Below are positions 6,103 to 41,186 of a stretch of DNA of 41,186 bases, piece by piece. Below the pieces are notes generated by a model. That model saw only the letters and a program-made list of their open reading frames with translations, was not told the DNA's origin and did not search any database. The stretch is from Lachnospiraceae bacterium (GTDB lineage Bacteria > Bacillota > Clostridia > Lachnospirales > Lachnospiraceae): positions 1 to 41,186 of the forward strand of contig BLLT01000009.1 of NCBI GenBank assembly GCA_011958945.1. The letters are read 5' to 3'. Positions within the stretch are counted from its first letter, which is position 1, and each line of letters begins with the position of its first letter. The translations under genes were made by a program, and so were the position numbers.

Positions 6103-6130
6103 CGTCGCCGTGGAAAGGCGGCGTTTCTTT
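6103..6130 (+). terminator. Rho-independent terminator of clpX
   Basis: The stem CGTCGCC pairs with GGCGGCG (one G-T pair) around a 7-nt loop and is followed by TTTCTTTT. It lies 15 bp after the clpX stop and is immediately followed by repeat copy B. Confidence 0.85.
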
Positions 6131-6205
6131 TATATAATTAGGAAATTATGCCACAGCGTTGTCAGTCACTAGGAATTGACCGCTGGGCCAACTCTTTTTT
6201 ATACT
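6127..6205 (+). repeat. Dispersed terminator-abutting repeat, copy B
   Basis: Starts directly in the T-run of the clpX terminator. The 5' module reads TAGGAAATTATGCC then CACAGCGTTGTCAGTCACTA. The 3' module is a GACCGCTGGGCCAAC hairpin followed by CTTTTTTAT. Copies D (35674) and E (41144) share the 5' module almost base for base. Copies A, C and D share the 3' module. It codes for no visible protein. Confidence 0.8.
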
Positions 6206-6319
6206 ATTTTTTTATATAATAGGATTCGGATGTCAAAAGCCCTGGCTGTGGGGGAAGCCTGGCAATTAGCACAAAAAGTAATATAGAATAAAGAAACGGG
6301 AATAAACAGGGAAGAGGAA

Positions 6320-8719
6320 ATGGACAGGATGGAAGTATCAATAAGAGCGAGTGAGAAGATATGTATTCCTACAGTGGCGCTGCGGGGGATGGTGATTTTA
6401 CCCCGTACGATTATTCATTTTGATTTGAGCCGTAAAAAATCAATTGCGGCTGTAGAGCAGGCCATGGTGGTGAACCAGAGGATTTTTTTAGTGACGCAGA
6501 AAGAGACGGAAGATAAGGACCCGGATTTTGAAGGGGTTTATCATATAGGAACGGTGGCTCTTGTAAAGCAGGTTATTAAAATGCCGAACAATATTGTACG
6601 GGTCATGGTAGAAGGGATTTCCAGGGGCAAACTTTTAGGACTTACGGAAAATCAAGTGTATCTGGAAGGGGAAGTGAAGGAAATCGATGAGCCGGCCAAT
6701 TTGAGGGGAACCGTACAAGAAGAGGCGATGGTGCGTCAGATTAAGGAATTATTTGCAGGCTATGCGGCATTTTACCCGAAGACAGGGGCGGCAGTGGAAC
6801 GACATATTCAGGATGTTGGTGAACTGGGCTGGGTTTTGGATCAGATAACGATTAATATGCCATTGCAGTATGAAAACAAGCAGAATGTGCTTTCGGCGAT
6901 AGACCTGGAAGAGCGTTATGAGATGCTAGCCGGAATATTGAGCAACGAAATAGAGGTTGCAAAAATCCGTACGGAACTTTCCGAGAAAATAAGGGGGAAA
7001 GTAGAAAAGAATCAGAAGGAATATCTTTTGAGGGAGCAGCTCCAGTTTATCAGGGAAGAACTGGGGGAGGAGAATTCCTATTCCGATGCGGAGCAATTCG
7101 AAGCAGATTTAAAAAAGCTGAAGGCCGGCAAAGAAGTGAAGGAAAAAATCAGCAAGGAAATCGCCCGTTACCGTAGATTATCCCAGAACAGTTCGGAGAG
7201 TGCGGTGGAGCGGGGGTATATAGAAACGTTGCTGGAGCTGCCCTGGGATAAGTATACGAAGGACAATACGGATATTAGCCAAGCCGAAAATATCCTGGAA
7301 CGGGATCATTATGGCCTGAAGCAAGTGAAGGAAAGGGTACTGGAGGCATTGGCGGTACGCTGTCTGACAAAACAGGGGCAGGCACCGATTATCTGTCTGG
7401 TGGGCCCTCCCGGAACGGGGAAGACCTCCATAGCGAAAAGCGTGGCGGAGGCTATGAATAAGAAATACGTGCGTATCAGCCTGGGCGGTGTACGGGATGA
7501 GGCGGAAATCAGGGGGCATAGGAAGACCTATGTAGGGGCTATGCCGGGACGGATTATTGCCGGGCTAAAACAGGCCGGTGTGAAAAACCCGTTGATGCTG
7601 CTGGATGAAATCGACAAGGTGAGCAGCGATTATAAAGGGGATACTTCCTCCGCTTTACTGGAAGTACTGGACGGGGAACAGAATAATAAGTTCAGGGATC
7701 ATTACGTAGAGATTCCGGTGGACTTATCGGAAGTATTGTTCGTCGCCACAGCGAATTCGGTGGCAACCATCCCCAGGCCGCTGTTGGACCGCATGGAACT
7801 CATAGAGGTGAACAGTTATACGGCCAACGAGAAATACCATATTGCCAAAGAGCATCTGGTGGCCAAACAACTGCGCAGGAACGGCCTGGAAGGCGGCCAG
7901 CTTTCCATTAGTGACAGCGCATTGAAGAAAATGATAGAGTGCTATACGAGGGAAGCCGGTGTCCGCGATTTGGAGAGGCAAATCGGCAGCATTTGCAGAA
8001 AGGCAGCAAAAGAAATCCTACAGAAGAAAAAGCAGGGTATTAAAGTGAGTGCTTCCAATCTGGGGAAGTATTTGGGCAAGGAAAAGTATAGTACTAATCG
8101 GGTCAATGAAAAAGACGAAATAGGGATTGTAAGAGGCCTGGCCTGGACTAGCGTAGGCGGGGAAACCTTACAGATAGAGGTGAACGTAATGCCTGGGAAA
8201 GGAGAGGTTGACCTAACCGGTCAGATGGGCGATGTGATGAAGGAGTCGGCAATTACCGGTTTGAGTTACGTTCGCTCTATCAGCAATAAGTATGGAATTT
8301 CCCAGAAAACATTCAGGGAAAATGATTTTCATATACATATCCCGGAAGGCGCTGTGCCTAAGGACGGCCCCAGCGCAGGGATTACCATGGCTACCGCCCT
8401 TTTCTCGGCCATAACCAATACGCCGGTAAAGGCGGATGTAGCGATGACAGGGGAAATTACTTTACGGGGCAGAGTGCTTCCTATCGGCGGGCTGAAGGAA
8501 AAGATTCTGGCTGCCAGGACCGCAGGGATCAAAACAGTGCTTGTACCGGAAAAAAATAAAAAAGATATCGAAGAGATAGAAGGGGAAATCAAAGCCGGGC
8601 TTTCCATTTATTTTGTGGAGAGCATGGAAGAAGTACTCCCCCATGCCCTGGCCGGAGAGATTCATAAAGAAGCTTTCATTGGGGCAAAGAAGCAAAAGAA
8701 AAGGGACGGAAAAGAGTGA
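6320..8719 (+). CDS. lon: ATP-dependent protease Lon (LonA type)
   Basis: A 799-residue soluble LonA that degrades misfolded and regulatory proteins. The N-terminal substrate domain (about 10-210) begins with [13 protein letters not shown]. The AAA+ domain has Walker [10 protein letters not shown] (about 362-370) and Walker [11 protein letters not shown]. The C-terminal peptidase domain has the catalytic dyad Ser685 (PKDGPSAG) and Lys728 ([10 protein letters not shown]). The ATG at 6320 follows GGAAGAGG. engB follows at 84 bp, a widely conserved Firmicute pairing. The 230-bp upstream gap holds the clpX terminator, repeat copy B and an AT-rich stretch that may contain the lon promoter. Confidence 0.97.
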
Positions 8720-8802
8720 AAGCCCAGGCCGGGAGAATACTCTGCCAAGGGTATGAAATTCGTGAATGCCTAAATGAAACATGGTGAAGAAAGGAATTAT
8801 AT

Positions 8803-9399
8803 ATGGTAATTAAGAATGTGAATCTGGAGACAGTCTGCGGGATTACCAGCAAGATGCCAGAGAACGAACTGATAGAATTTGCATTTGCAGGAAAAAGCAA
8901 CGTGGGCAAGTCCTCTCTGATTAACGGCCTGATGAACCGAAAATCATTGGCGAGAACCAGCGCGCAGCCGGGAAAGACACAGACAATAAACTTTTACAAC
9001 ATCAATGACCAATGTTATTTTGTGGACCTGCCCGGATACGGCTATACTACGGCTAATGTAAAAGTAAAGGAACAATGGGGAAAGATGGTAGAGCGCTACC
9101 TCCACGGAACAAAGATGCTGCGTGCTATTTTCCTCCTCATTGATATCCGCCACGAGCCCTCTGCCAACGATAAAACAATGTATGAGTGGATGCTGCACTA
9201 CGGCTTCCACCCCATTATCATCGCTACCAAACTGGATAAGCTAAAAAAAACCCAGGTACAAAAGAATATAAAAATGATAAGGACAGCGCTGAATATGGAT
9301 GGGGACAGCATACTTATCCCATACTCATCCCTTACCAAACAGGGCCGGGAAGAAATCTACGCCCTCCTGGATACGCTTTTGGAAGGGGAAGGCCAATAG
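8803..9399 (+). CDS. engB: Ribosome biogenesis GTP-binding protein EngB/YsxC
   Basis: A 198-residue TRAFAC-class GTPase needed for assembly of the large ribosomal subunit. The G1 motif is GKSNVGKSS (about residues 29-37), the G2 region is PGKTQTINFY, G3 is DLPGYGY and G4 is TKLDKL. The ATG at 8803 follows AAAGGAA. Gene order lon-engB matches Bacillus and many Clostridia. Nothing unusual was seen in length or motifs. Confidence 0.96.
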   Translation: MVIKNVNLETVCGITSKMPENELIEFAFAGKSNVGKSSLINGLMNRKSLARTSAQPGKTQTINFYNINDQCYFVDLPGYGYTTANVKVKEQWGKMVERYLHGTKMLRAIFLLIDIRHEPSANDKTMYEWMLHYGFHPIIIATKLDKLKKTQVQKNIKMIRTALNMDGDSILIPYSSLTKQGREEIYALLDTLLEGEGQ

Positions 9400-9429
9400 C
9401 CTCGGCAAAATATTCAGATACTATGTGCC

Positions 9430-10680
9430 ATGAAAAGAATCAACAAACCTTTGACCACCCAAAACATCAACGAAGGGAGTCCTGATTACCAAATGAAACA
9501 ACTATCCAGAACATATATAAAAGCCCTGATGAACCTGGGAATTGCAATACTGATCTTGCTTCTCATGGTATTCCTTCTTCCGAGAATGATTCTGTTCTTC
9601 ATGCCTTTTGTTATCGGCTGGATCATAGCATTAATAGCCAATCCGCTGGTACAATTTTTTGAAAAAAAGCTGAAAATCAGGAGAAAGGCCGGAACCGTAT
9701 TCGTAGTGGTGGCCGTTATTTCTTTAGTAGTGCTGGCAGGGTATTTGCTTGGCAGCAAAATAGTGCAGGAGACAGTAGGGCTGGTGAATGAACTGCCCCA
9801 AATATGGAATTCTTTGGAGGAGGATTTTCGTACCATAGGTCAAAATCTGGATATTTTGTACAGCCGTTTCCCGAAAGAGATGCGCGAGAGCATTGTGGGA
9901 ATCGGGGAGCAAATGGAAGGTTTTGTAGGAGACATCGTAAGCCGTGTAGGTTCGCCTACTATTGAGGCGGTGGGCAATTTTGCCAAAAATCTTCCCACTA
10001 TTATAATCGGAATCATTATGTGCCTTTTATCCGCTTATTTTTTCGTGGCAGAAAGGGAGTATCTGAATGTTCATGTAAAAAGCCATATGCCGGAAACCAT
10101 TACTTATCGGTGGAACATAATGGCACGGAGTTTTCGCCGTGCAGTTGGAGGATATTTTAAAGCTCAATTTAAAATTGAGGTTTGGATGTATTTGCTTCTT
10201 GTGCTGGGGCTTTGGATATTGAAGGTGGATTATGCTTTTCTGATTGCAATAGGTATTGCCTTCCTGGATTTTTTGCCTGTTTTTGGAACGGGTACGGTGT
10301 TGATGCCATGGGCAGTCATCAAGATATTGAGCGCAGATTATAAAATGGCGGTGGGACTTTTGATTATCTGGTGCGGCGGGCAGCTGGCGCGGCAGATTAT
10401 CCAGCCTAAAATTGTAGGCGACTCCATTGGCGTTCCGCCGATTCCCACACTATTCCTGCTGTTTATCGGATATAAGGCGGCGGGGGTATTCGGTATGATT
10501 ATTGCGGTGCCCATCGGCATTATTCTTATGAATATGTATGAAGAAGGGTTATTCGATACAACCAAAAACAGCATAAAAATCCTTTGGGCGGGGGTTAATA
10601 ATTTCCGTCGCCTGGATGAAAAGGACTTATCGGTAATCAAGGAATATGAAAGTCTGCAAAGGGAGAAGATTGAGGATTAA
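9430..10680 (+). CDS. AI-2E family transporter, YtvI-like sporulation membrane protein
   Basis: A polytopic inner-membrane protein of about 416 residues in the AI-2E/PerM family. Strong hydrophobic segments lie near residues 35-68, 86-108, 178-200 and from 235 to 365, separated by a polar extracytoplasmic stretch of about 70 residues. The DFLPVFGTGTVLMPWA and GVFGMIIAVPIG segments are typical of the family. The length and N terminus resemble the YtvI subgroup named for sporulation. The start is uncertain: the ATG at 9430 has no clear ribosome binding site, while an in-frame ATG at 9493 lies 13 bp after GGGAG. The transported compound, if any, is unknown. Confidence 0.8.
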   Translation: MKRINKPLTTQNINEGSPDYQMKQLSRTYIKALMNLGIAILILLLMVFLLPRMILFFMPFVIGWIIALIANPLVQFFEKKLKIRRKAGTVFVVVAVISLVVLAGYLLGSKIVQETVGLVNELPQIWNSLEEDFRTIGQNLDILYSRFPKEMRESIVGIGEQMEGFVGDIVSRVGSPTIEAVGNFAKNLPTIIIGIIMCLLSAYFFVAEREYLNVHVKSHMPETITYRWNIMARSFRRAVGGYFKAQFKIEVWMYLLLVLGLWILKVDYAFLIAIGIAFLDFLPVFGTGTVLMPWAVIKILSADYKMAVGLLIIWCGGQLARQIIQPKIVGDSIGVPPIPTLFLLFIGYKAAGVFGMIIAVPIGIILMNMYEEGLFDTTKNSIKILWAGVNNFRRLDEKDLSVIKEYESLQREKIED

Positions 10681-10793
10681 AACTTTTTATCCCAAGATTG
10701 TGTCTGCGAAGCAGCCGCAGGCTTGGCAGAACAAAATCAATTTTTGTGCAAAAGGGTTATGCAAAAATAGGGGGAGGATTAGGAGGTACGGAG

Positions 10794-11777
10794 ATGAAAG
10801 TAACGGTATATAGCTGCAGGGAATTCGATGAAAAGGAATTATTTATACAGTATGGAAAAGAATTGGGTATAGAACTGGTCTTGTGCCCGGATGCGCCATG
10901 TATGGAAAATGCAGCGCTGGCGGAAGGGAGCGAATGTATTGACATTCTGACCTCCAAGATGACGGAGGAACTGCTCGGGGCATTGAAGGAGCGGGGCGTG
11001 CGCTATGTGGTGACCCGTACTATCGGCTATGACCATATCGACAGGGAAGCAGCAAAAAAACTGGGGATTACGGTGGCAAATGCCCCTTATGGCCCCCATG
11101 GGGTAGCGGATTATGCCGTGATGCTGATTTTGATGTCCATACGTAAGATGAAAAGGATTATAGAGCGCACCAATATTCAGGACTATACGCTGCAGGGGAT
11201 TCAGGGGCGTGAACTGAAGGATATGACTGTAGGGGTCATTGGCACTGGGAGGATAGGGAGGACGGTAATCCATAATCTATCGGGGTTTGGCTGCAGGATG
11301 TTAGCATATGATTTATTTGAAAATGAAGAGGTGAAAAAGGCTGCAGAATATGTTACACTGGAAGAAATATGGAAGCAGGCGGACATTATCACCTTGCATG
11401 CCCCCCTTACGGAGGACAGTTTTCATATGATTGGCAAGGACACGATTGCACAGATGAAGGATGGGGTGGTAATCGTGAATACGGCCAGGGGCGGGCTCAT
11501 TGATTCCCAGGCATTGATTGCAGGGATTGAATCGGGAAAAGTAGGCGCTGCCGGGCTGGATGTGGTAGAAAATGAATTTGAACTTTACTATTACGACAGG
11601 AAATCGGACGTGTTAAACAACAGGGAACTGGCGGTGCTCAGGGGATTCCCGAATGTAACGGTAACTCACCATATGGCGTTTTATACCGATGAATGTGTCA
11701 AAACGGTGGTAAGGGATTCGCTGATGGGATGCAGGCTTTTTGCCGAAGGGCGTGAAAATCCATGGGAGGTTGCATAA
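10794..11777 (+). CDS. D-isomer-specific 2-hydroxyacid dehydrogenase (D-lactate dehydrogenase-like)
   Basis: A 327-residue NAD-dependent dehydrogenase of the D-LDH/VanH/HicDH group, which reduces 2-keto acids such as pyruvate. The Rossmann motif is GTGRIGR. The substrate Arg lies in NTARGGLID and the catalytic His in VTHHMAFYTDE. Family residues RTIGYDHID and GPHGVADYAV are also present. I chose the ATG at 10794 because it follows AGGAGG at ideal spacing; the frame stays open 32 codons upstream without support. truA begins on the next base after the stop, so the two are cotranscribed. D-lactate as the product is the likeliest reading but cannot be separated from other 2-hydroxyacids here. Confidence 0.9.
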   Translation: MKVTVYSCREFDEKELFIQYGKELGIELVLCPDAPCMENAALAEGSECIDILTSKMTEELLGALKERGVRYVVTRTIGYDHIDREAAKKLGITVANAPYGPHGVADYAVMLILMSIRKMKRIIERTNIQDYTLQGIQGRELKDMTVGVIGTGRIGRTVIHNLSGFGCRMLAYDLFENEEVKKAAEYVTLEEIWKQADIITLHAPLTEDSFHMIGKDTIAQMKDGVVIVNTARGGLIDSQALIAGIESGKVGAAGLDVVENEFELYYYDRKSDVLNNRELAVLRGFPNVTVTHHMAFYTDECVKTVVRDSLMGCRLFAEGRENPWEVA

Positions 11778-12518
11778 TTGCGCAATATAAAAGTAATACT
11801 TCAATATGAAGGAACAAAATACCAGGGCTGGCAGAGACAGGAGAGCACCAAAAATACGATTCAGGGCAGGCTGGAGGCGCTGCTTACGAAAATGTGCGGC
11901 CAGAAAGTGGAGGTGGACGGATCAGGGAGAACTGATGCGGGAGTTCATGCCTATGGGCAGGTGGCTAATTTTCATATTGATACGAAGATGAGCCTTTCGG
12001 AAATCATGGATTATATGAACCGATATCTGCCCGAGGATATTGCGGTGATTGATATTGCGGAAATGCCAGGGCGTTTTCACAGCAGGCTGAACGCAAAAGG
12101 AAAAACTTATCAGTACAGGGTGATAAACAGCGCCGTGCCACATATATTTGATAGAAGATATGCCCACGTAGTGGAGGAGGACCTGGATATGGAGGCTATG
12201 CGGAGGGCGGCAAAAGTACTGTGCGGCACTCATGACTATAAGGCATTTACTTCGAGCAAAAAGAGCCGGAAATCCACGGTTCGGACGGTTAATTCGATTA
12301 TAATAGAAAGAGAAGGCGATGAGATTCTCTTTACATTTAGCGGGAACGGTTTTTTGTTCCATATGGTACGTATTATGATGGGAACCCTGCTGGAGGCGGG
12401 GATGCACAAAACAGATGAGGTACAGATAGAAAAGCTTCTTATGTCGGGAACGAGGCAGGAAGCGGGTCATCTGGTGCCTGCCAAGGGATTAGCTTTGGTG
12501 GAGGTTCGTTATTCGTGA
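11778..12518 (+). CDS. truA: tRNA pseudouridine synthase A (positions 38-40)
   Basis: A 246-residue TruA that makes pseudouridine in the tRNA anticodon arm. The catalytic Asp53 is in GRTDAGVHAYG. Other family motifs are YQGWQRQ, GTHDYKAFTS and FLFHMVRIMMGTL. The start is a TTG directly after the TAA of the preceding dehydrogenase gene, supported by GGGAGG 10 bp upstream and by the conserved start of the protein (RNIKVILQYEGT). It overlaps the next gene by 4 bp (GTGA), indicating translational coupling. Confidence 0.95.
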   Translation: MRNIKVILQYEGTKYQGWQRQESTKNTIQGRLEALLTKMCGQKVEVDGSGRTDAGVHAYGQVANFHIDTKMSLSEIMDYMNRYLPEDIAVIDIAEMPGRFHSRLNAKGKTYQYRVINSAVPHIFDRRYAHVVEEDLDMEAMRRAAKVLCGTHDYKAFTSSKKSRKSTVRTVNSIIIEREGDEILFTFSGNGFLFHMVRIMMGTLLEAGMHKTDEVQIEKLLMSGTRQEAGHLVPAKGLALVEVRYS

Positions 12519-12982
12519 ATAAATCAAAACGCATAAAAATTGTGTTTTTTATATATATTGCAGTAGTAATAAAAGTTATTATATTTAAGTACCCGTGGGA
12601 AGACCTGAAAGCGATTATGGACACGTGGGAAAAAGGCGTTATTTTGGAGGGCTTGGATACCGCTAATTTTACGTTGTTTAAAACGATAAAAATGTATATC
12701 GACTATTCCTATATGCTGAACAGTTTTGAGAATCTAGTGGGAAATGTGGTAGTGTTTATCCCATTTGGATTCCTCCTTCCCTATGTCTATAAAAAAGCCG
12801 CGAAATTTCCGGTTTTGTTTTGCAATGCCTTCTTTTTCGTACTGGGGATTGAAGTGTTTCAGTTATTCAGCGCTTTCGGAGCCTTTGATGTGGATGATAT
12901 CCTGCTAAACTGTTTTGGAGCAGCGCTGGGATGGATGTTTTATTGGCAGTGGGAAAGGATTAGGAAACGGTGGGCGTGTTGA
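12515..12982 (+). CDS. VanZ-like family membrane protein
   Basis: A 155-residue membrane protein with four hydrophobic segments. The central NLVGNVVVFIPFGFLLPYV and GIEVFQLF...FDVDDILLNCFGAALG are the VanZ-like domain signature. VanZ gives low-level teicoplanin resistance in enterococci, but most chromosomal relatives have unknown roles in the cell envelope. The GTG start overlaps the truA stop (GTGA), so it depends on truA translation. Although a D-LDH-like gene sits two genes upstream, no VanA-type ligase or VanX is present, so this is not a van cluster. Confidence 0.85.
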   Translation: MNKSKRIKIVFFIYIAVVIKVIIFKYPWEDLKAIMDTWEKGVILEGLDTANFTLFKTIKMYIDYSYMLNSFENLVGNVVVFIPFGFLLPYVYKKAAKFPVLFCNAFFFVLGIEVFQLFSAFGAFDVDDILLNCFGAALGWMFYWQWERIRKRWAC

Positions 12983-13058
12983 ATGCAGAATAGGCAGAGT
13001 AATGGGCTGTGCGGACATACTTTGATATCCTTACTGATTGACTTTGAAAGTCAATCAA

Positions 13059-13084
13059 ATACCCCGCTGCAAGCAACGGGGTAT
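13059..13084. repeat. CCCCG hairpin 5' of repeat copy C
   Basis: ATACCCCG pairs perfectly with CGGGGTAT around a 10-nt loop. Just upstream is a second dyad, ATTGACTTTGAAAGTCAAT (13037-13055). Neither has a following T-run. The 444-bp gap 12983-13426 thus holds two hairpins, repeat copy C (13085-13165), and an A/T-rich stretch (13310-13400) that should contain the sigma-factor promoter. No gene was seen in it. Confidence 0.6.
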
Positions 13085-13165
13085 CAAACTTGCAGCGTTG
13101 TAAGTCGCCAGGAAAGAATGTGAAGCATTCTTTGGAGTTGGCCGCTGGGCCAACTCTTTTTTATA
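13085..13165 (+). repeat. Dispersed repeat, copy C (longest internal form)
   Basis: Contains CAGCGTTGTAAGTCGCCA (13093-13110) and the GTTGGCCGCTGGGCCAAC hairpin with a CTTTTTTAT tail. Between them is an extra small hairpin, AGAATG with CATTCT, that copies B and D lack. Its 5' flank differs from the others: it follows a CCCCG hairpin instead of a terminator T-run. Confidence 0.75.
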
Positions 13166-13426
13166 ATTTTGAAACTTTTTCCCCGCTTTGTGCGTCTAAT
13201 AATAAAGCGGATATTTGCTTCAACCCCATTTTGCACGGTTTTTAACACCCTGATCAAAAAGAAGCCGGGGCTAAAAGCCCTGCCCACAGACGGTTTTTGG
13301 CGCATTGCAAAAAAGTTGTGCGCAAAAATAAGAAAAAAATAATATTTTTTTTGCAGTATTTTTGGTTTCTATGGGATATTACTATATAGAGACAATAAAT
13401 AATTACGAAAATGAGAGACAGTACAT

Positions 13427-14080
13427 ATGATGGAGAAGAAGAGCGGCAGAAGGGCAGAAGTGTCTGTTTCGAAAACGATAGATATGGAAAAGCTGCAGAA
13501 GAAAATTGACTCCTACAGCAATATGCTGTATCGAATTGCATATTTGCAGTTAAAAAACAGCCAGGATGCAGAGGATGTGGTACAGGAGACTTTTTATCAG
13601 TTTGTGAAAGCCCAAAAAGGGTTTGAAACGCCGGAGCATGAGAAAGCATGGCTAATCAAGGTGACACTGAATGGCTGCCGGAAGATATGGCGTTCTGCAT
13701 GGTACAGGCATTCGGATGTGATGACGCCCGGCGGGAAGGAGGATGACGGGAAAAGGGCGGGCGGCCTGCTATTGGAGGATGTCCACAGCAATATTTATGA
13801 CAGCATTTATGATAATATCGGGAAAAATATCCAGGGTAATATCAAGGATAATATCCTGGAAGACATTCTAATAAAGGAAAGAAACCGGGAAATTATGGAA
13901 GCAGTGTGGAAACTGCCCAGGAGATACCGGGAGGTGATACATCTGTTTTATTTCCAGCAGATGAGTATAAAGGAAATAAGTGAAGTGACGAAGCGGAAGG
14001 CATCTACGGTGACTTCACAGCTGACAAGGGGCAGGGAACTGCTCAGAAAAAATCTGAAGGAGGAGTATCAGTATGAATGA
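13427..14080 (+). CDS. RNA polymerase sigma factor, sigma-70/ECF-like, with tetrapeptide-repeat linker
   Basis: A 217-residue sigma factor. Region 2 (about 25-95) has the NMLYRIAYLQLKNSQDAEDV and ETFYQF core-binding and -10 recognition signatures. Region 4 (about 155-212) is a helix-turn-helix (LPRRYREVIHLFYFQQMSIKEISE, written here in parts: LPRRYREVIHLFY and MSIKEISEVTKRKASTV). Between them the linker holds seven tetrapeptides of the form x-N-I-x at residues 121-148 (13787-13870), which is unusual. The ATG at 13427 has only a weak ribosome binding site. The anti-sigma gene overlaps its 3' end by 8 bp. Such pairs are normally released by an envelope signal and often autoregulate. Confidence 0.9.
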   Translation: MMEKKSGRRAEVSVSKTIDMEKLQKKIDSYSNMLYRIAYLQLKNSQDAEDVVQETFYQFVKAQKGFETPEHEKAWLIKVTLNGCRKIWRSAWYRHSDVMTPGGKEDDGKRAGGLLLEDVHSNIYDSIYDNIGKNIQGNIKDNILEDILIKERNREIMEAVWKLPRRYREVIHLFYFQQMSIKEISEVTKRKASTVTSQLTRGRELLRKNLKEEYQYE

Positions 14081-15128: not shown

Positions 15129-15160
15129 AGGGATCAGGTTTTGCGAGAGGAGGAAACCAA

Positions 15161-15847: not shown

Positions 15848-15881
15848 GAAGATAATATAAAGAAAATAATATAAAGAAGAT

Positions 15882-16046: not shown

Positions 16047-16085
16047 CTTATTTTGACACCCGAATCTTATTTTTTAAAAAATTAC

Positions 16086-31424: not shown

Positions 31425-31442
31425 TGGAGAGTGAAGAATATA

Positions 31443-32687: not shown

Positions 32688-32703
32688 AAAAGAGGAAATA
32701 CTA
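32674..32703 (+). promoter_or_regulatory. Possible forespore promoter for spoVAD
   Basis: GAATT (32674-32678), an 18-bp gap and AATACTA (32697-32703) partly match the sigma-G consensus, 47 bp before spoVAD. The -35 is off by one base, so this is weak. It would allow spoVAD to be expressed with spoVAC despite their separation. Confidence 0.35.
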
Positions 32704-32749
32704 TACAAAGAGTGGGAAGTAGGCAATTGTGAAAGGAGCTTTGTATCGT

Positions 32750-33796: not shown

Positions 33797-33833
33797 TGTA
33801 CCGGAAAAGAAAGTACCGGAGTTTAGGAAGTTT

Positions 33834-33869
33834 AAAGGGATATCGGTGAAAGGCCGCTGTCCCTTTTTT
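33834..33869 (+). terminator. Rho-independent terminator downstream of spoVAD
   Basis: AAAGGGA...CGG pairs with CCG...TCCCTTT, with a small internal loop, then TTTTTT. It lies 37 bp after the spoVAD stop. The rest of the 312-bp gap to the next gene contains only the rpn promoter. Confidence 0.75.
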
Positions 33870-34036
33870 GTGGACAGCCCCGTGCAGCGGGTAATGCGTA
33901 CATATTTTCCCTATGATATTTGGGAACACGAGAATACCCCGTTTTTCTGAATGGAGGGAATCCAGTATTAATCAAAACATTTGCAATCAGGATAATAGAC
34001 CGGAATTTCGCGCCATAACTGGCAAGTTTAATTATC

Positions 34037-34065
34037 TTGAAATATGTTGAGCCAAATAGTATACT
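34037..34065 (+). promoter_or_regulatory. Putative sigma-A promoter for the first Rpn gene
   Basis: -35 TTGAAA (34037-34042), a 17-bp spacer and -10 TATACT (34060-34065), 43 bp before the start codon. Confidence 0.6.
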
Positions 34066-34108
34066 GGAAGCAAAGACGAAACGGCCCGGTGAACGGAAAG
34101 GATAAAGA

Positions 34109-35083
34109 ATGGCAAGAAAAATGCAGAAGCTGAAACCGGACACGGTATTGAGAAACTATTGGAGAAATAATGAACGGTTTGCGGACTTTTTTAATGCAGT
34201 GCTTTTTGATGGAAAGCAGTTAATTAAACCCGAGGAACTGGAGGATAGGGATACGGAGGAGTCTTCCATACTGGAACATAGAAAGTATGCGGAGACTATC
34301 CAGTCGTCCAGGGATAATATCAAGATAAGGAAGCGTTCTACTGTCTATGGGGTGGAATTTGTAATGCTGGGGATAGAACATCAGGGGCATATCCATTATG
34401 CAATGCCGATGAGAATCATGGGCTATGATTATGGTGTTTATAAGAAACAGTATGATGACAATTCATCAAAATATAAGACAGCGGAGGGGATGGAAGCAGA
34501 TGAATATCTGTCACACATGAAAAAAACGGATAAATTTGCGCCATTGATTACAGTAGTAGTATACTATGGAGAAAAGAAATGGGATGGTGCAGTTTCCTTG
34601 CACGGAATGCTGGATATACCGGAAGAGATGAAGGGGTATGTAAATGATTATAAGATGCTGCTTATAGAAGCGGCAAAAAGTGATTTATCATTGAAAAATG
34701 CGGACAATATAGATTTATTTAATTTGTTGCAAATCATTCTGGATAGGGAAATTACAAGGGATGAGGCAAGAGAAAAAGCAATACAATACAGCGAGGAACG
34801 TAAGACAGACAGGGAAGTGGTTATGACTGTGGCAGGTGCGACGAACAGCAAGATTGATTATGATGCATTTGGAAAAGGAGATGGATCTATGTGTACTTTG
34901 TTTGAAGAGATTGCGAAGGAAAATGAAATAAAGGGGATTGAAAAGGGAATCGAAAAGGGAATTAAAGGCATGGTATCCGCATTAAAGGAACTAAATATTC
35001 CGGATGCAACAATAATGCAGAAAATCAGAGAAAAGTTTGAACTTTCCGGGGAAGAAGCGGAGAGGTATATTACGCGGATGTAA
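34109..35083 (+). CDS. Rpn-family PD-(D/E)XK nuclease/putative transposase (paralogue 1)
   Basis: A 324-residue protein of the Rpn (recombination-promoting nuclease, Transposase_31) group, as seen in Lachnospiraceae. The N terminus has FADFFNAVLFDGKQLIKPEEL, shown here as FFNAVLFDG and LIKPEEL. The nuclease core shows SRDN (Asp69, probable metal ligand) and LGIEHQGHIHYAMPMR with the ExQ pair Glu90/Gln92. TVVVYYGEKKWDG follows. The C-terminal tail has a short repeat KGIEKGIEKGIKG and a helical end. E. coli relatives cleave DNA and promote RecA-independent recombination; the role here is unknown. The ATG at 34109 follows GAAAGG. A second, diverged copy is at 39704. Confidence 0.85.
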   Translation: MARKMQKLKPDTVLRNYWRNNERFADFFNAVLFDGKQLIKPEELEDRDTEESSILEHRKYAETIQSSRDNIKIRKRSTVYGVEFVMLGIEHQGHIHYAMPMRIMGYDYGVYKKQYDDNSSKYKTAEGMEADEYLSHMKKTDKFAPLITVVVYYGEKKWDGAVSLHGMLDIPEEMKGYVNDYKMLLIEAAKSDLSLKNADNIDLFNLLQIILDREITRDEAREKAIQYSEERKTDREVVMTVAGATNSKIDYDAFGKGDGSMCTLFEEIAKENEIKGIEKGIEKGIKGMVSALKELNIPDATIMQKIREKFELSGEEAERYITRM

Positions 35084-35115
35084 TGGCCAAATAGGATCAA
35101 AACGGGGGGGAGGAA

Positions 35116-35625
35116 ATGGTAATACGCCACGCATTGAAAGAAGATGTAAAAAAGATTATGGAAATCTATGAATATGCCCGCCGCTTTATGGCGGAGCATG
35201 GGAATCCAAATCAATGGGGCCCTACCAATTGGCCGCCGGAAGAATTGATTGAAAAGGACATTGCGGACGGGAAGAGTTATGTATGTATGGACGAAGGGCG
35301 GATTGCGGGTACGTTTTTCTTCTGCCAGGGGAAGGATATTGAGCCATCCTATCTTGTGATAGAGGAAGGGGAATGGACGGAGGATAGCCCTTACGGAGTG
35401 ATACACCGGCTGGCAGGGAACGGAACGGTAAAAGGAGTGGGAGCCTTCTGTATCGAATGGGCCTTTATGCAATGCGGGCATCTGCGGGCAGATACTCATG
35501 GAGATAATCAGGTGATGCAGAACTTGCTGGAAAAAAGCGGTTTTAGTTACTGCGGGGTGATACATGTGGCGGAGGATAATTATCCAAGGCTGGCATATGA
35601 AAAAGTGTTAGAAAATAATAAGTAA
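35116..35625 (+). CDS. GNAT-family N-acetyltransferase
   Basis: A 169-residue protein with the GNAT layout: IRHALKEDVKKIMEIYEYARR at the start (visible as IRHALKEDV), the strand RIAGTFFFCQGKD, the acetyl-CoA region VKGVGAFCIEWAF (less glycine-rich than the usual QxxGxG), and the closing LRADTHGDNQVMQNLLEKSGF. The substrate is unknown. The ATG at 35116 follows GGGGGGAGGA. It lies 32 bp after the Rpn gene and is probably cotranscribed. A strong terminator follows. Confidence 0.9.
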   Translation: MVIRHALKEDVKKIMEIYEYARRFMAEHGNPNQWGPTNWPPEELIEKDIADGKSYVCMDEGRIAGTFFFCQGKDIEPSYLVIEEGEWTEDSPYGVIHRLAGNGTVKGVGAFCIEWAFMQCGHLRADTHGDNQVMQNLLEKSGFSYCGVIHVAEDNYPRLAYEKVLENNK

Positions 35626-35640
35626 ATAGTGAAGAAAAAG

Positions 35641-35676
35641 ACTGTCGGAATGATAAAAGTTCCGGCAGTTTTTTTA
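35641..35676 (+). terminator. Rho-independent terminator after the GNAT gene
   Basis: ACTGTCGGAA pairs with TTCCGGCAGT (one G-U) around a 9-nt loop, then TTTTTTT. Repeat copy D begins in the T-run. Confidence 0.85.
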
Positions 35677-35744
35677 TATTATAGGAAATTACGCCACAAT
35701 GTTGTAAGCCACTAGGGATTGGCCGCCGGGCCAACTCTTTTTTA
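35674..35744 (+). repeat. Dispersed terminator-abutting repeat, copy D
   Basis: Starts in the terminator T-run with TATATTATAGGAAATTACGC, continues CACAATGTTGTAAGCCACTA, and ends with TTGGCCGCCGGGCCAA and CTTTTTTAT. It is the cleanest complete two-module copy. The 300-bp gap to the next gene otherwise holds a direct repeat TGTCA...TGTCA near 35777 and A/T-rich promoter-like DNA. Confidence 0.8.
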
Positions 35745-36000
35745 TGTAAACGGGCGGATTATATTGTAAATAGTGTCAAAAAAATGTCACAATCTGGCTT
35801 TCCCTTATTTTTCATAAAAAAATCTGATAATAATGAGTATGTTATGATAACAATTGCAACACTTCGGCAAAATAAGGATATATTTTGTATACTACACAAT
35901 AGGAGACGGAGATTTGAAAATTTGAATGGGCAAGGCAAATCATAAAATCTCTGGCTTTGGAAAGGGCATGGTTTTAAGGGTGAAAAAAGGGATGGGCGGT

Positions 36001-37023
36001 ATGGAACTGGAAAAAGAAATCCGAAACCTTGTAGCAGAATATACGAGGGAATTCTGCAGAACGAATAAAATTGAATATGACACTCTGGGAATTAGCAAGG
36101 CTTTGAATATTTCCAGAACACTGGCATCGCAGCATCTGAACAGGATGGTGAAGTCGGGAACATTGATCAAAATTGTATCACGCCCGGTTTACTATCTTGA
36201 TAAAAAGATAATAGAGGATAGTTTTCGGATGCAGCTGGATACAGAAATGTTTTATGCCCTGGAAGACTTGACGGAACTCTTTGATAAAAAACTGGTGGAC
36301 AGAAAGGGGTTTATGGAGGCGGTAGGATATGATACCACTTTGCGCTATTTAACAACCCAGTGCCAGGCTGCCGTAAAATATCCCCCTGGGGGAGTTCCCA
36401 TGCTCATATATGGGGAACATGGGGTGGGGAAAACCTTTTTTTCACAATTGGTGTATGAATATGCGAAGGCGGAATCCGTACTTCCCGCGCAGGCCAAATG
36501 CTGCCTGCTAAATTATTCCAAAGTAAATGATAATAAACCTGACGATGATGCAATTCTTTTCGGAAGCTGCTTTTTGAACGGGAACAAGGAACTTTGTAAG
36601 CGGGCGGGGCTTTTGGAAGAAGCGGCGGGTGGATTTGTCATCATAGAAAACGTGGAGCAGATGTCTGCGAAATGTCTGGAAAAAGTCATCGCATATATAA
36701 GAAGCGGTACGTATACAGTCAGAGGGGATAACCTTATTTACCACAGCAAAACAAGGCTTATACTAACAGTCTGTGAAAATTCCTGTGACATGGTAGAAAA
36801 TGCATTGCTGCAGGTCGTGCCGGTAGTATGTAAGCTTCCGCCACTGGACAAAATTTATCCTATAGAGATAAAGAAAGCGAAAATTCCCAATTATGGAGAC
36901 AAAAATTTTGCGGTGTTGAATAAATTGGGTATGGATGTGAAACCGGGCATTATATTGTGTATGGCGGATGAAATGCTCCCCTATAATCGGGATACATGGT
37001 TTTTTCCGGTATCGGCGTTGTGA
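36001..37023 (+). CDS. Truncated sigma-54-activator-like (LevR-type) regulator without GAFTGA
   Basis: About 340 residues from ATG 36001 (an in-frame ATG at 35926 would add 25). The N-terminal helix-turn-helix (GISKALNISRTLASQHLNRM, at the length limit) is followed by a AAA+ core. Walker A is GEHGVGKT. The segment LFGSCFLNGNKEL stands where LFGxxKGAFTGA is expected, and GLLEEAAGGF follows as usual. Walker B is altered to VIIENVEQ. Full LevR-type proteins continue with PRD and EIIA domains; here the protein stops after the AAA+ region. Without GAFTGA it should not activate sigma-54 polymerase. It could be a decayed remnant or a repurposed repressor. GAAAAAAGGG lies before 36001. Confidence 0.7.
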   Translation: MELEKEIRNLVAEYTREFCRTNKIEYDTLGISKALNISRTLASQHLNRMVKSGTLIKIVSRPVYYLDKKIIEDSFRMQLDTEMFYALEDLTELFDKKLVDRKGFMEAVGYDTTLRYLTTQCQAAVKYPPGGVPMLIYGEHGVGKTFFSQLVYEYAKAESVLPAQAKCCLLNYSKVNDNKPDDDAILFGSCFLNGNKELCKRAGLLEEAAGGFVIIENVEQMSAKCLEKVIAYIRSGTYTVRGDNLIYHSKTRLILTVCENSCDMVENALLQVVPVVCKLPPLDKIYPIEIKKAKIPNYGDKNFAVLNKLGMDVKPGIILCMADEMLPYNRDTWFFPVSAL

Positions 37024-37057
37024 AATGTTATGAGAATATTAGAAATAAGTATATAAG

Positions 37058-37123
37058 GTAACGTAACAGTTCAGCCTTCCGGCTTCGCTGTCACAAGATA
37101 ACAGCCTTTTTGTTAAAAAAGGT
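37058..37123. repeat. AACAGTTCAG-family element and small A/T hairpin
   Basis: ATAAGGTAACGTAACAGTTC and AGCC continue into a GCCTTCCGGC mini-hairpin, then CCTTTTTGTTAAAAAAGG (37106-37123). The first part shares GGTAAC and AACAGTTCAG with the hairpin at 29986 and CAGTTCAGCC with the one at 15957. It lies just downstream of the truncated regulator and may end its transcript. Confidence 0.5.
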
Positions 37124-37214
37124 TGAAAATAATGGAAAGTACTAGTAAAATAGGAAACGATATAATGGTTGCGGTATGGGAAGGGCATTTGCGCAACTGG
37201 AACAGGAGTACTGC

Positions 37215-37445
37215 ATGAGACAGATGGAATTTAAGATGGAGCGTCAGGGTCTGTTAAAAGAAGGGGAGCGCGTGACGGTGACGGAAGGCGTGCTTCCCAG
37301 CAATTATTATTATACCATTGACCCGGCATTGGCCATGTCAGGGAACTATCCGTTCCGTGAGAGGATGCTGGCCAGGGAGGGGATCGTTACGAAGATAATC
37401 GAGAACGAACGGGGGTTTTATGTAATGGCAGAATTCGAGGAGTGA
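37215..37445 (+). CDS. Small conserved-looking hypothetical protein
   Basis: A 76-residue soluble protein, start at ATG 37215, six bases after AGGAG; the frame is open further upstream without support. It is rich in charged residues at the start (RQMEFKMERQGLLKEGERV). EGVLPSNYYYTIDPALAMSG and FRERMLAREGIVTKI suggest a compact beta-rich fold. No membrane segment or signal peptide. I do not recognise the family. It lies about 130 bp before ridA in the same direction. Confidence 0.6.
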   Translation: MRQMEFKMERQGLLKEGERVTVTEGVLPSNYYYTIDPALAMSGNYPFRERMLAREGIVTKIIENERGFYVMAEFEE

Positions 37446-37574
37446 AGGGGATATACTGTCTCGGCGGGGGCAATACCCCGTTGCCAAAAGTCTCAGTGGA
37501 GCCGAAAGAGTTTAATAAAACTAAGCCAAAAACTTACCATGCACAATAAAGCGGTGCAGAAATGGAGTAAAATT

Positions 37575-37952
37575 ATGAGGAAAAAAGTATCAACGGACAA
37601 AGCGCCGGCAGCAATCGGGCCGTATTCACAGGGGATTATTGCAGGCAATGTTTTATATGCATCGGGGCAGATTCCCATTGACCCGGCTACAGGGAATATC
37701 AAAGGGGAGGACATCGTAGAGCAGGCAGAACAGGTGATGAAAAATGTAGGGGCCGTGCTGGAAGAAGCAGGCTATAATTACGAAGACGTGGTGAAGACTA
37801 CCTGCTTTTTGGCAGATATGGCTGATTTTGCCGCATTTAACGGGGTATATGAAAAGTATTTTACCGGGAAACCGGCAAGAAGCTGCGTGGCGGTAAAACA
37901 GCTGCCCAAAGATGCCCTTTGTGAAGTGGAAGTGGTTGCCTGCCATGAATAA
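37575..37952 (+). CDS. ridA: RidA family enamine/imine deaminase
   Basis: A 125-residue trimeric enzyme that hydrolyses reactive 2-aminoacrylate-type enamines released by PLP enzymes. Family motifs are [23 protein letters not shown], the catalytic Arg in KPARSCVAV and [10 protein letters not shown] at the C terminus. The ATG at 37575 is preceded by GGAG. A longer start at 37539 would add an unlikely basic leader. The shikimate-kinase-like gene overlaps its stop by 8 bp, indicating translational coupling. Confidence 0.95.
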
Positions 37953-38529
37953 TACAGCATTGGAGAATTGCACAGCGATGGGGGAGTCTGCAGCATGGAA
38001 GAGTCACATGGCAATGGGAAAGGGTGCTGCATCTGGAAACAACATCGTACTAATCGGTATGCCGGGAGCGGGGAAAAGCACGGTGGGTGTAGTGCTGGCC
38101 AAGCATCTCGGCTGCCGTTTTGTGGATTCTGATATTGTAATTCAGGAAAAAACAGGGCTGCTTTTGCATGAAATCATTGAAAAGCAGGGATTGGATGGTT
38201 TTCTAAAGGTGGAGAATGAAATCAATGCCGCACTGGAAGCAAGGCGGAGCATAATCGCCACCGGCGGAAGCGTGATTTATGGGAAGGAAGCCATGAGGCA
38301 TCTAAAGGTGATGGGAAAGGTGGTATACCTGAAGCTGTCTTACCAGTCAATCGAAAGGCGCTTGGGGGATTTGAACGAACGGGGAGTGGCGGTAAGGGAA
38401 GGGCAGAGTTTGTTGGATTTATACAATGAAAGAGTGCCCTATTACGAGCAGTATGCGGACATCATTCTGGACTGCGAAGATAAGATGATACGGGATATTG
38501 TGGCAGAAATAAAGGAAAGGTTATCATAG
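37945..38529 (+). CDS. Shikimate-kinase-like P-loop kinase with atypical substrate site
   Basis: About 194 residues. Walker A is GMPGAGKS (about 38-45), DSD follows strand 2, and there is a lid region and a C-terminal AEIKERL helix, all as in shikimate kinases. Substrate-binding residues differ: FRxxE is FLKVE, the GGG loop is ATGGS, and the lid Arg-Pro is missing. A related sugar or acid kinase is possible. The start is uncertain: ATG 37945 overlaps ridA but has a weak ribosome binding site and gives a 30-residue N-terminal extension; ATG 38008 or 38014 would give a standard N terminus. Automated labels usually read aroK; I leave the symbol blank. Confidence 0.75.
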
Positions 38530-38531
38530 CA

Positions 38532-39422
38532 ATGAAAAAGATATCGTTTGGCAGCAGTTTGCTTTTATTTTTGGCTGCCTGTATATGGGGAGTGGCTTTC
38601 GTGGCGCAAAGTGTAGGGATGGACTATATGGGGCCGTGTACTTTCAACGGCATCCGTTTCCTCATCGGCGGTACGGTGCTTCTGCCCCTGGTTTATGTAC
38701 GGGTAAAAAAGAAAAAAAATACGCCGGAGGAACTTCCCCCTGCATTGACATTAAAGGGGGGGATATGCTGCGGCCTGGCTATATGTGCAGCTTCTTTGTG
38801 CCAGCAGATAGGGATTATGGAGACAACGGTAGGAAAGGCGGGGTTTATCACTACTCTTTATATCATTATCGTTCCCGTCTTTGGACTGTTTTTACGTAAA
38901 AAAGTACCGGGGAAAGTATGGATAGCAGCGGCAGTGGCGGCAGTGGGGATGTATATGCTCTGCATAAATGAAAGCTTTTCTGTCAGCAGAGGGGATGCAT
39001 TTGTATTTTTGTGTGCAATTATTTTTGCGGTACATATTCTTGTGATTGATTTTTTTTCCCCGAAGACTGATGGGGTGGCGCTGTCATGTATCCAGTTTTA
39101 TACGGCGGGAATTATCTGTACGGCAGCTGCCTTTGCGGTGGAAACGCCAACATGGGGGCAGTTTGTTTCCGGCATTGTACCCATTCTATATGCGGGGGTG
39201 ATGTCCTGCGGGGTGGCTTATACCCTTCAGATTATCGGACAGAAAAATGTGGAGCCTACGGTGGCATCCTTGATTTTGAGCATGGAATCGGTGGTTTCTG
39301 TGCTGGCTGGCTGGGTGATATTGGGGCAGGAACTGTCTTCGAAGGAACTGGCCGGGTGCGTGCTTGTATTTGCGGCGGTGATTTTGGTGCAGTACAATGG
39401 GCGGGCCCCAAAAAAGGCGTAA
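38532..39422 (+). CDS. DMT superfamily (EamA) transporter
   Basis: A 296-residue protein with ten hydrophobic segments in two EamA repeats. The first begins LAACIWGVAFVAQSVG and contains FNGIRFLIGG. The second ends in ASLILSMESVVSVLAGWVILG, split here as ASLILSMESV and LAGWVILGQEL, a family signature. Members export amino acids, nucleotides or drugs; substrate unknown. It starts 3 bp after the kinase-like gene, probably in one operon with ridA. Confidence 0.92.
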   Translation: MKKISFGSSLLLFLAACIWGVAFVAQSVGMDYMGPCTFNGIRFLIGGTVLLPLVYVRVKKKKNTPEELPPALTLKGGICCGLAICAASLCQQIGIMETTVGKAGFITTLYIIIVPVFGLFLRKKVPGKVWIAAAVAAVGMYMLCINESFSVSRGDAFVFLCAIIFAVHILVIDFFSPKTDGVALSCIQFYTAGIICTAAAFAVETPTWGQFVSGIVPILYAGVMSCGVAYTLQIIGQKNVEPTVASLILSMESVVSVLAGWVILGQELSSKELAGCVLVFAAVILVQYNGRAPKKA

Positions 39423-39430
39423 TACATGAT

Positions 39431-39452
39431 GCCCCGCTGTTTGCAGCGGGGG
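39431..39452 (+). terminator. CCCCGCTG hairpin after the DMT transporter gene
   Basis: CCCCGCTG (39432-39439) pairs perfectly with CAGCGGGG (39444-39451) around TTTG. No T-run follows, so termination strength is uncertain. A second hairpin, CGGTTTT with AAAAACCG, lies 20 bp further on. The 281-bp gap to the next gene has no other gene-like content. Confidence 0.5.
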
Positions 39453-39703
39453 TATTGGCCTGGTTAATCGGTTTTCCTGAAAAACCGGCATCCCCTATGG
39501 ACAGAATGAAATTCCTATGGTATACTTTTTCAAAGCATATATTTCTGATATTCTTTTTATTCTAATGAAGTATCATTCCAATGGTTATAAAAACCATCCA
39601 GCGAAATCGTGCTTTTATTTCAAATTACTTTTTAAATATGCAGGAAAGTTTCAATCAAGGGAAAAAAGCCGGTTTGTATGCGTTTCCTGCAAAGGGAGGC
39701 TAA

Positions 39704-40759
39704 ATGGGAAAGGAAGATATTTTACTTAAGTCATATCTCGGCGATGTGCGTAGATATGCGGATTTATGGAATGGCGCATTATTTTGCGGGGAGCAGTTGG
39801 TGAAGCCGGAAGAACTGGAGGAAATCAGCCCAGTGTTGTTAAAAGGAGGGAACATTTTTCTGGAAAAAAGGCGGGATTTGGTGATGAAACAAAACAGGGA
39901 TGGACAATATTTTGCCATTTTGGTAGTGGAAAACCAAAAAAACATAGACTATAGTATGCCTGTAAGGATTGCATTAGAAGAAGCGCTTGCCTATCATTGC
40001 CAGATAAAAGAAATAAGGAAGACAAACGAAAAAGCAGATAAGGAATATCAGGAAGGGAAAAGTCAAAAAGTATATGCAGATGCTGGAGAACGCCTGTATA
40101 TGTTCAGGAAAGAAGATAAGCTGAAGCCGGTAGCAACAATGATAGTATATTGGGGGGAGGAGGCATGGCAGGGGCCTAAAAGTCTGCATGATCTCATAGA
40201 TTTTGGCAGAGAGGAGTCTTTTAACAAACAGTTGAGAAAGCTGATACCAGAATATCCGCTTCACTTTTTAGATTTGAATTATTTTCAGCATTTTGAATAT
40301 TTCAAGACAGAATTACGCCCATTTTTGGAATTATACAAGAAAAGGAATAACAAAGAAGAATTCCGGAAATATGTGCAGGAGAATAAGAAGTATTGGAAGA
40401 TGGATAAAGAAACCTTATATGTATTCAGCCATTTGACTAATTCTAAAAACTTAAAAGAGTTAATAAAAAGCGAACAGGAAAAGAAAGAGGGGGAAAAAGG
40501 GATGTGTAAGGCAATTGATGGATGGATAGAGGATGTAAAGGAAGAAGGAAGAATAGAAGGGAAAATGGAAGGGAAAATAGAAGGAAAAAGGGAATCCGTT
40601 CTTACTTTATTGGAAAGTTTTGGTGAAATATCGGATGGTTTACGGAAAAAAATTGCTGAACAAACAAATGCCTTGGTTTTAGTGGGATGGATAAAATTGG
40701 CTGCGAAAGCTAAAAGCATTGAAGAATTTTCTTTTCATATGGATAAGCTGGATTTATAA
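39704..40759 (+). CDS. Rpn-family PD-(D/E)XK nuclease/putative transposase (paralogue 2)
   Basis: A 351-residue diverged paralogue of the gene at 34109. Shared features are YADLWNGALFCGEQLVKPEEL at the start (seen as LWNGALFCG and LVKPEEL), KRRDLVMK with the probable catalytic Asp58, VVENQKNIDYSMPVR with Glu76/Gln78, and MIVYWGEEAWQG. The C terminus has a charged repeat, EGKMEGKIEGKRE, like that of paralogue 1. The ATG at 39704 follows GGGAGG. It stands alone ahead of a T-box leader. The mobile-element label is inherited from the family; no terminal repeats were found. Confidence 0.85.
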   Translation: MGKEDILLKSYLGDVRRYADLWNGALFCGEQLVKPEELEEISPVLLKGGNIFLEKRRDLVMKQNRDGQYFAILVVENQKNIDYSMPVRIALEEALAYHCQIKEIRKTNEKADKEYQEGKSQKVYADAGERLYMFRKEDKLKPVATMIVYWGEEAWQGPKSLHDLIDFGREESFNKQLRKLIPEYPLHFLDLNYFQHFEYFKTELRPFLELYKKRNNKEEFRKYVQENKKYWKMDKETLYVFSHLTNSKNLKELIKSEQEKKEGEKGMCKAIDGWIEDVKEEGRIEGKMEGKIEGKRESVLTLLESFGEISDGLRKKIAEQTNALVLVGWIKLAAKAKSIEEFSFHMDKLDL

Positions 40760-40766
40760 AAAAGTA

Positions 40767-40795
40767 TTGACATTCGCACAGCACAGTGCTAATAT
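40767..40795 (+). promoter_or_regulatory. Near-consensus sigma-A promoter of the T-box transcript
   Basis: -35 TTGACA (40767-40772), a 17-bp spacer and -10 TAATAT (40790-40795), beginning only 8 bp after the Rpn stop. Confidence 0.8.
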
Positions 40796-40809
40796 GATAA
40801 AAATTAAAT

Positions 40810-41143
40810 AAAGTCATAGAAACCGTTGAAATGGAGATAACGGCAGATGTTGCACTCACAGAGAGCCGGGATGGCTGAGAACCGGCAGAACGCAGTTTGT
40901 CAAATGGACCATGGAGGGCGCAGTCAAAGGCTTCTGGCCGAGTATTCTGCGACGTAAGGCATACGTTAGTTGCCGGGAATATGTTAGTATTTCGCAAAGG
41001 GCAAAGAATCCTTTTCCAGATTATATTTGCTGCGTCCGTTTTATTAGGATTTGCTGGAAAATTTTCTTTGAAACAAGGTGGCACCGCGGATTAAGAAAAT
41101 AATTCGTCCTTGATAACAATGATGTTATCAAGGACGTTTTTTT
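40810..41143 (+). ncRNA. T-box riboswitch leader with terminator
   Basis: A tRNA-sensing leader. The Stem I hallmark AGAGAG (40859-40864) leads into the GCCGG/CCGGC hairpin with GATGGCTGAGA. The conserved T-box AAGGTGGCACCGCG is at 41075-41088. The terminator CGTCCTTGATAACA pairs perfectly with TGTTATCAAGGACG (41105-41136), then seven Ts. The regulated gene lies beyond the window and is probably an aminoacyl-tRNA synthetase or amino acid gene. A candidate specifier after GAAC (40888-40891) is GCA, which would mean alanine, but the specifier loop was not modelled and this is a weak reading. Confidence 0.92.
41105..41143 (+). terminator. T-box terminator hairpin
   Basis: A perfect 14-bp stem with an ATGA loop and seven following Ts. 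Its 5' arm competes with the antiterminator formed by the T-box sequence. Repeat copy E begins at its T-run. Confidence 0.92.
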
Positions 41144-41186
41144 GTATTATAGAAAATTACGCCACAGCGTTGTAAGTCGCCAAGAA
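41144..41186 (+). repeat. Dispersed terminator-abutting repeat, copy E (cut by window edge)
   Basis: The 5' module only: TATTATAGAAAATTACGCCA followed by CAGCGTTGTAAGTCGCCA. It abuts the T-box terminator T-run exactly as copies B and D abut theirs. The GGCC hairpin module is predicted just beyond the right edge. If it has terminator activity, it would lie between the T-box terminator and the regulated gene. Confidence 0.75.

Follow-up and report, generated by a model that had tools for sequence, protein, structure and literature searches.

Group IIC introns are large ribozymes that typically come with a reverse transcriptase. In the part of the published record compared here, they insert behind the stem-loops of terminators (PMC7923331), a position shared by the short repeat units analysed in this study, five copies of which lie in a stretch of 41,186 nt from a Lachnospiraceae bacterium (GenBank assembly GCA_011958945.1, contig BLLT01000009.1, positions 1 to 41,186 of the forward strand; hereafter the window). 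The units differ from such introns in their length of 62–91 nt, and neither a ribozyme domain nor an Rfam intron match was found in the window, in six unit-bearing loci or in a 140-kb sample. The SPRITE repeat of Streptococcus pneumoniae is described, in the portion of the source compared, as one 18-bp duplex with a uridine-rich tract and AAAA/TTTT ends, present in 30 copies; like the units it is small and shaped as a Rho-independent terminator, lies near gene 3' ends, is confined to close relatives and is clustered with and inserted in other repeats, and docking behind existing terminators is not mentioned in that portion (PMC3049150). Instead of the single stem of SPRITE, the units show two or three short hairpins; their end TATAGGAAA is fixed, and their dock was measured. 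BOX elements of the same species share a modular build, in which the ends are fixed and the module in the middle is optional, but have terminal inverted repeats and target duplications, and no terminator dock appears in the description compared (PMC3049150). REP/RAYT (GTAG) and CGTC palindromes, as far as covered in their description, are likewise small high-copy hairpin repeats, the CGTC types without known transposase, and the main text concerned contains neither the word Firmicutes nor Clostridi-; the REP tag is unpaired (PMC3733652), whereas the CGTC letters of U3, a family introduced below, lie within the stem of hairpin 1. No unpaired GTAG or CGTC tag was found in the units, and no Y1 transposase in the copy-rich draft genomes G001 and G012. 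As expected of miniature inverted-repeat transposable elements, the units are short, non-coding and present in many copies; their left end TATAGGAAA and right end TTTTTTA(TA) form, by eye, only a loose inverted match. In kind they belong with miniature non-autonomous repeats like SPRITE and BOX, yet they do not clearly show all the defining features of any named family. In the literature covered, which included few subscription journals, we found no description of this repeat or of any short repeat docking behind terminators.

We suggest, with a probability of about 0.6 and judging from sequence comparisons, that the units are mobile elements, short and non-autonomous, which belong to a single genus of Lachnospiraceae and use terminators as safe docks. 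Each consists of TATAGGAAA and a small hairpin, closed on the 3' side by a terminator hairpin and T-run. A further hairpin, AAAGAATGCGAAGCATTCTTT, may lie in the middle and distinguishes the two main forms, which measure 85 nt if it is present and 62 nt if not. The window copies belong to family U1; U2 and U3 are other families in the genus, U4 is a further family and F6 another repeat. Within the genus, U1, U2 and U3 share a T-run, a 4-base spacer (NNNT), TATAGGAAA and hairpins ending in a terminator with T-run, and there are at least four related families with a common plan, one of them in another genus. The five copies reported by an earlier sequence-only reading of the window were all recovered where it had placed them. 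When the window was scanned with up to three mismatches, TTGGCCGCTGGGCCAA gave four matches (0.60 expected), CAGCGTTGTAAGTCGCCA three (0.02 expected) and TAGGAAATTACGCCACA three (0.09 expected).

Docking was counted on loci retrieved from repeat-carrying genomes because the repeats were present, and thus on a non-random sample. Each 5' end was assigned to its best family only, with at least 21 of 28 letters matching, which left 89 U1, 44 U3, 19 U2 and 12 F6 sites; short copies at contig edges with fewer than 60 bases upstream drop out of the counts. With tandem copies excluded, a T-run lies directly upstream of 71/77 U1, 27/32 U3, 16/16 U2 and 6/8 F6 copies, and a T-run together with a hairpin upstream of 39/77, 17/32, 7/16 and 3/8, respectively. 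Random positions gave a T-run in 325 and a T-run with hairpin in 46 of 4000 cases, and in a 441-kb sample picked irrespective of the repeat, the 243 other ATAGGA hexamers gave 20 and 5. Given a T-run, a hairpin was found at 39 of 71 U1 copies, compared to 46 of 325 random positions. The spacer between T-run and TATAGGA was most commonly 4 nt (54/77 U1). Because the sequences upstream of U1 are unrelated to each other (mean pairwise identity 0.259; none of 2926 pairs reaching 0.7), the upstream hairpin is, on this comparison, not part of the element, while the T-run could be counted as its own. Orientation is similarly constrained: among the 89 U1 sites, 57 lie behind a gene on the same strand and seven behind one on the opposite strand (57/64 among those for which an upstream gene was present), the others being inside an open reading frame of a simple caller (8), without an upstream gene in the stretch (10) or too near its end (7); random intergenic points gave 999 same-strand and 1001 opposite-strand cases. 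Looser U1 counts from a 2-mismatch pattern (118 sites; T-run 93/101, hairpin 57/101, strand 73:8) had included U3 copies and a few chance intragenic matches and were superseded. Solitary TATAGGA docks numbered 16 in the 441-kb sample, with 10 in the mirrored control. The claim that the placement is too regular for chance is thus borne out, both in the own genome and in relatives; the two outcomes named beforehand as fatal to it, copies without terminator enrichment or a likeness confined to the GGCC hairpin, were looked for and neither was found. Among short bacterial repeats, the units are a clear example of strict and oriented placement at intrinsic terminators combined with a replacement terminator of their own.

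The window is the entire contig C9 of a 5.07-Mb draft genome in 709 contigs, designated G000. Employing a covariance model built from 16 aligned copies, we found 95 matches in this genome at E ≤ 1 and 79 at E ≤ 0.01, some of which are halves of copies split by contig ends. Many of its contigs start or finish within a copy (e.g. C7, C9, C46, C108, C369 and C405), and the repeat is therefore likely to be a main reason why the assembly is so fragmented. With stricter filters at E ≤ 0.01 in 61 genomes, 68 matches were obtained in G000 and 47, 29, 18, 4, 3 and 1 in six of 15 congeners, with none in the other nine congeners or in 45 genomes outside the genus; U1 matches in G001 numbered 47. A loose U2/U3 pattern matched 39 times in G000, 42 in G001, 20 in G002, 14 in G013 and 27 in G012, against 0 or 1 match each of the mirrored control, and the remaining congeners were at or near the control level. 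In a screen of 200 genomes of the family, only G098 and G190 gave matches besides the own genome. The single match in G098 is not behind a T-run and equals the control level (single control matches in five genomes), whereas G190, which belongs to another genus, gave nine matches and no control match. By eye, the plan is complete or shortened at seven of these nine loci, where it has other hairpin letters and follows a terminator or a T-rich stretch; of the remaining two, L393 is truncated and L404 diverged. No match was found in phages or plasmids, and none in viral contigs by one exact 25-base pattern.

Sites empty in relatives, which the sequence-only reading proposed to look for, were found in some cases. 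At the clpX terminator of the window (site B), G002 retains the hairpin and T-run without the copy, and the same terminator carries a U1 unit in G000, a U3 unit in G001 and neither in G002. At about 14.0 kb of contig C303 in G001, a stack of U3, U1 and F6 follows a terminator that is present without the stack in G000, and at about 24.9 kb of the same contig two U3 units are missing in G002, whose tail differs just upstream. At other sites, discussed below, the hairpin is missing as well, and for the site of copy D no downstream match was obtained in G001 or G002.

The 3' hairpin of the unit, module 2 of the sequence-only reading, is predicted to be a strong terminator. For hairpin 1, compensatory changes were seen in three of seven pairs among 18 hand-picked starts of the U2, U3 and U4 types (U1 excluded), mostly with at least six of seven pairs, drawn from a 38-row list made up mostly of chance docks or non-members, so that both selection and relatedness of the sequences favour structure. 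In these sequences 90.5% of cells were paired compared to 80.3% in shuffles and the covariation score was 0.354 compared to 0.161 (0/500 shuffles as high in both cases), three pairs changed on both sides (20/500 shuffles), nine further pair types occurred (19/500 shuffles), and the signal vanished when the partner columns were slid by 1–3. The count is for hairpin 1 only, as the combined alignment shifts hairpins 2 and 3 between families. U1 carries an insertion in the first hairpin region and folds less regularly there. Folded alone and compared to shuffles, copy C is far more stable (z −4.5) and copy B moderately so (z −2.7), while copy D is not (z −0.9; 35/200 shuffles as good). At curated cut-offs, the window matched no Rfam family, and six unit-bearing loci yielded only tRNA and weak unrelated matches. 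The motif TTATAGGAAAT may resemble a Xer/dif half-site.

The units sit in a single orientation directly past the T-run of an intrinsic terminator that was already in place, as position, strand and some of the empty sites show. On one side of the junction a putative trans-acting enzyme would read the T-run or hairpin, on the other TATAGGAAA with hairpin 1, and it would probably join the two. Since every unit brings a terminator at its end, its insertion would be silent for the upstream gene and would at the same time create a fresh dock, on which units of different families could stack; families are indeed stacked on each other in many combinations. Such elements, if mobile, would show how small sequences can multiply without harm to the host, and would provide a test system for the enzyme involved. 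A more specific version, which we consider rather doubtful, couples insertion to transcription termination: the enzyme would recognise the hairpin and T-run, or the paused or terminated complex, join a terminator-bearing cassette to it and so build stackable, replaceable arrays at gene ends. If this were true, the common plan with different letters (U1–U4, perhaps more) in two genera would amount to a cassette system, not to a single family of repeats.

Several observations weigh against mobility, and movement itself is something we infer from position, strand and some empty sites. A test for target-site duplication on the looser U1 set gave 20 matches out of 46 with 16.3 expected (p = 0.09), and a longer test gave p = 0.185–0.65 for U1, 0.6–1 for U2 and U3 and 0.06–1 for six U4 copies, short duplications being masked by the T-run. 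No autonomous element with TATAGGA ends was found up to 3.5 kb in the retrieved sequence, which is part of each genome; the counts of Y1_Tnp matches (E ≤ 0.001) do not follow the copy counts across genomes, and the copy-richest genomes are drafts. By the criterion used, six of 77 U1 copies are without a T-run and 38 without T-run plus hairpin. At site B, the tail in G002 contains CATAGGAAAA and G003, G012 and G015 have similar short stretches (ATAGGA- or TTAGGA-like), possibly decayed old insertions. The CCCCG hairpin upstream of copy C and the copy itself are both missing in G001 and G002; at about 9.3 kb of contig C274 in G001, G000 and G002 have neither the hairpin nor either of the two units; and at about 69.4 kb of C56, also of G001, units lie behind different hairpins in G000 and G001, and G002 has neither. 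Hairpin and unit may thus sometimes come and go together. Target-site duplication as a general feature is not supported by the whole set, neither of the two tests being significant; single duplication-like cases are TTTTGT at locus L001, TTTGTTC on either side of the U4 copies at L399 and L403, and the flanks of a different insert at the clpX terminator of G014, described below.

The main rival is passive recombination between T-runs, in which no dedicated enzyme takes part and replication slippage, or recombination of the illegitimate or short-homology kind, would copy a T-run-flanked unit into other T-runs. The units do lie between T-runs, neither a target-site duplication nor a partner enzyme was found, and the joint absence of hairpin and unit at some places fits this explanation. 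It also agrees with an array of four 91-nt-spaced units in G001 (C206:51396–51753, locus L340), the inner junctions of which reproduce an uncommon T-run of the host (TTATTT) and thereby point to duplication in tandem more than to successive insertions. We nevertheless regard passive spread as unlikely, as the exact left end, with TATAGGA 4 nt past the T-run in 54/77 copies, and the fixed orientation are not demanded by slippage alone, and the numbers of the families differ greatly between congeners. The sequence-only reading had left the choice between a mobile element targeting terminators and a second-stage terminator or small RNA module. The former is the better of the two, given empty sites with kept terminators, albeit with no significant duplication and no partner found; as for the latter, module 2 is a good predicted terminator, but nothing shows selection for a host function.

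A host module under selection at gene ends, acting as a backup terminator, RNA-stability or small-RNA element, is quite improbable: the compensatory changes in hairpin 1, the strong predicted 3' terminator and the mostly sense orientation to the upstream gene would agree with it, but nine of 15 congeners have no model match, orthologous genes lack the unit, truncated copies exist, no Rfam family covers it, and copy E, if complete, would sit between a T-box and trpE, an odd spot for a useful terminator. IS200/IS605 elements move by a Y1 transposase with single-strand cuts at a fixed left target motif, in one orientation and without duplication, a hairpin near the end being read. The fixed left target, the single orientation, the lack of an observed duplication and the hairpin beside the left end are reminiscent of such movement, which is nonetheless very unlikely here: Y1_Tnp matches at E ≤ 0.001 numbered 7 in the own genome, 0 in the drafts G001 (47 U1) and G012 (27 U2/U3 pattern), and 10, some of them broken, in G010, which yet has no repeat matches. 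A Y1 transposase as partner was set aside since its counts are out of step with the copies. That the units are remnants of group IIC introns, which likewise insert behind terminators, is extremely improbable, with the intron searches named at the outset empty and a 5' end of TATAGGAAA instead of the intron GUGYG.

Within the window, all features are on the forward strand, and copies A and E are both cut off by the contig ends. Copy A comprises the 3' hairpin and T-run of a unit (1–25) and is followed by a PTS EIIBC gene from 53. Copy B, a U1 short form (6136–6200; covariance match C9:6138–6199, E = 1.4e-11), is docked on the clpX terminator hairpin and T-run (6099–6131; fold −19.0 kcal/mol, z −4.4), the gene label being supported by a ClpX match (PF06689), and behind a second T-run lies the left end of an F6 repeat (TATAGGATTCGG..., 6218–6250). 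Copy C (13093–13162; covariance match C9:13076–13161, E = 5.6e-15) follows the CCCCG hairpin (13060–13083), as the sequence-only reading had it; the internal hairpin it took for an oddity belongs to the usual 85-nt long form, found in 9 of 16 aligned copies, and it is the first half of module 1 that copy C lacks. Copy D, again a U1 short form (35680–35743; E = 2.1e-13), is docked on a terminator hairpin with T-run (35635–35675; fold −21.8 kcal/mol, z −7.8), and for the gene before it, labelled GNAT earlier, no Pfam match was obtained. Copies B, D and E do not start inside the T-run, as had been thought, but about 4 nt past it.

The 5' part of copy E (41148–41186) follows the terminator hairpin and T-run of a T-box (41105–41143; fold −20.8 kcal/mol, z −6.8), whose leader (40817–41114) matches RF00230 with 86.3 bits (E = 2e-19), below the curated cut-off of 93. 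Contig C326 of the own genome starts inside a long-form U1 copy (L411), followed by its terminator, an F6 start and the N-terminal part of anthranilate synthase component I (trpE). Because trpE comes after the T-box in the congener G014, the start of C326 probably holds the rest of copy E. The earlier remark that such a position is odd if module 2 terminates keeps its force, the placement before trpE being probable. If copy E is complete, a unit with a strong predicted hairpin would stand between T-box and trpE, in which case either termination by it is weak or the transcription of trpE starts somewhere else; as a second terminator at this place, it would be a natural direct test of whether unit hairpins terminate.

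Some minor observations concern neighbouring sequences. The open reading frame before the T-box (39704–40756) has a weak Transposase_31/YhgA-like match (PF04754, 24.5 bits, cut-off 21). In G014, which has no U1 match, a different insert beginning ATAGGAAA lies behind the same T-box terminator (L397:815–870) and a related one behind the clpX terminator (L299), the two inserts being marked by ATAAGGAAGTGCTCCTA / ATAGGAAAATGCTCCTA; the clpX insert of about 140 bp has TTTTGTT on either side and is missing in G008. Another repeat, GCACACGGGCGTCCAAATGAAATGTGTCAGC..., often begins right behind a T-run and AT (L312, L318, L319, L332, L017 and others), with 15 matches listed, some of the same copy, from loci biased toward the U1 repeat. 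Other repeats of the set do have clear forms with two ends, namely a palindrome in L361 and F6 in L146 of G012 (L146:1246–1500, about 250 bp), where TATAAGGATTCGGGTGTC... is accompanied by an inverted end; elsewhere F6 shows one end only.

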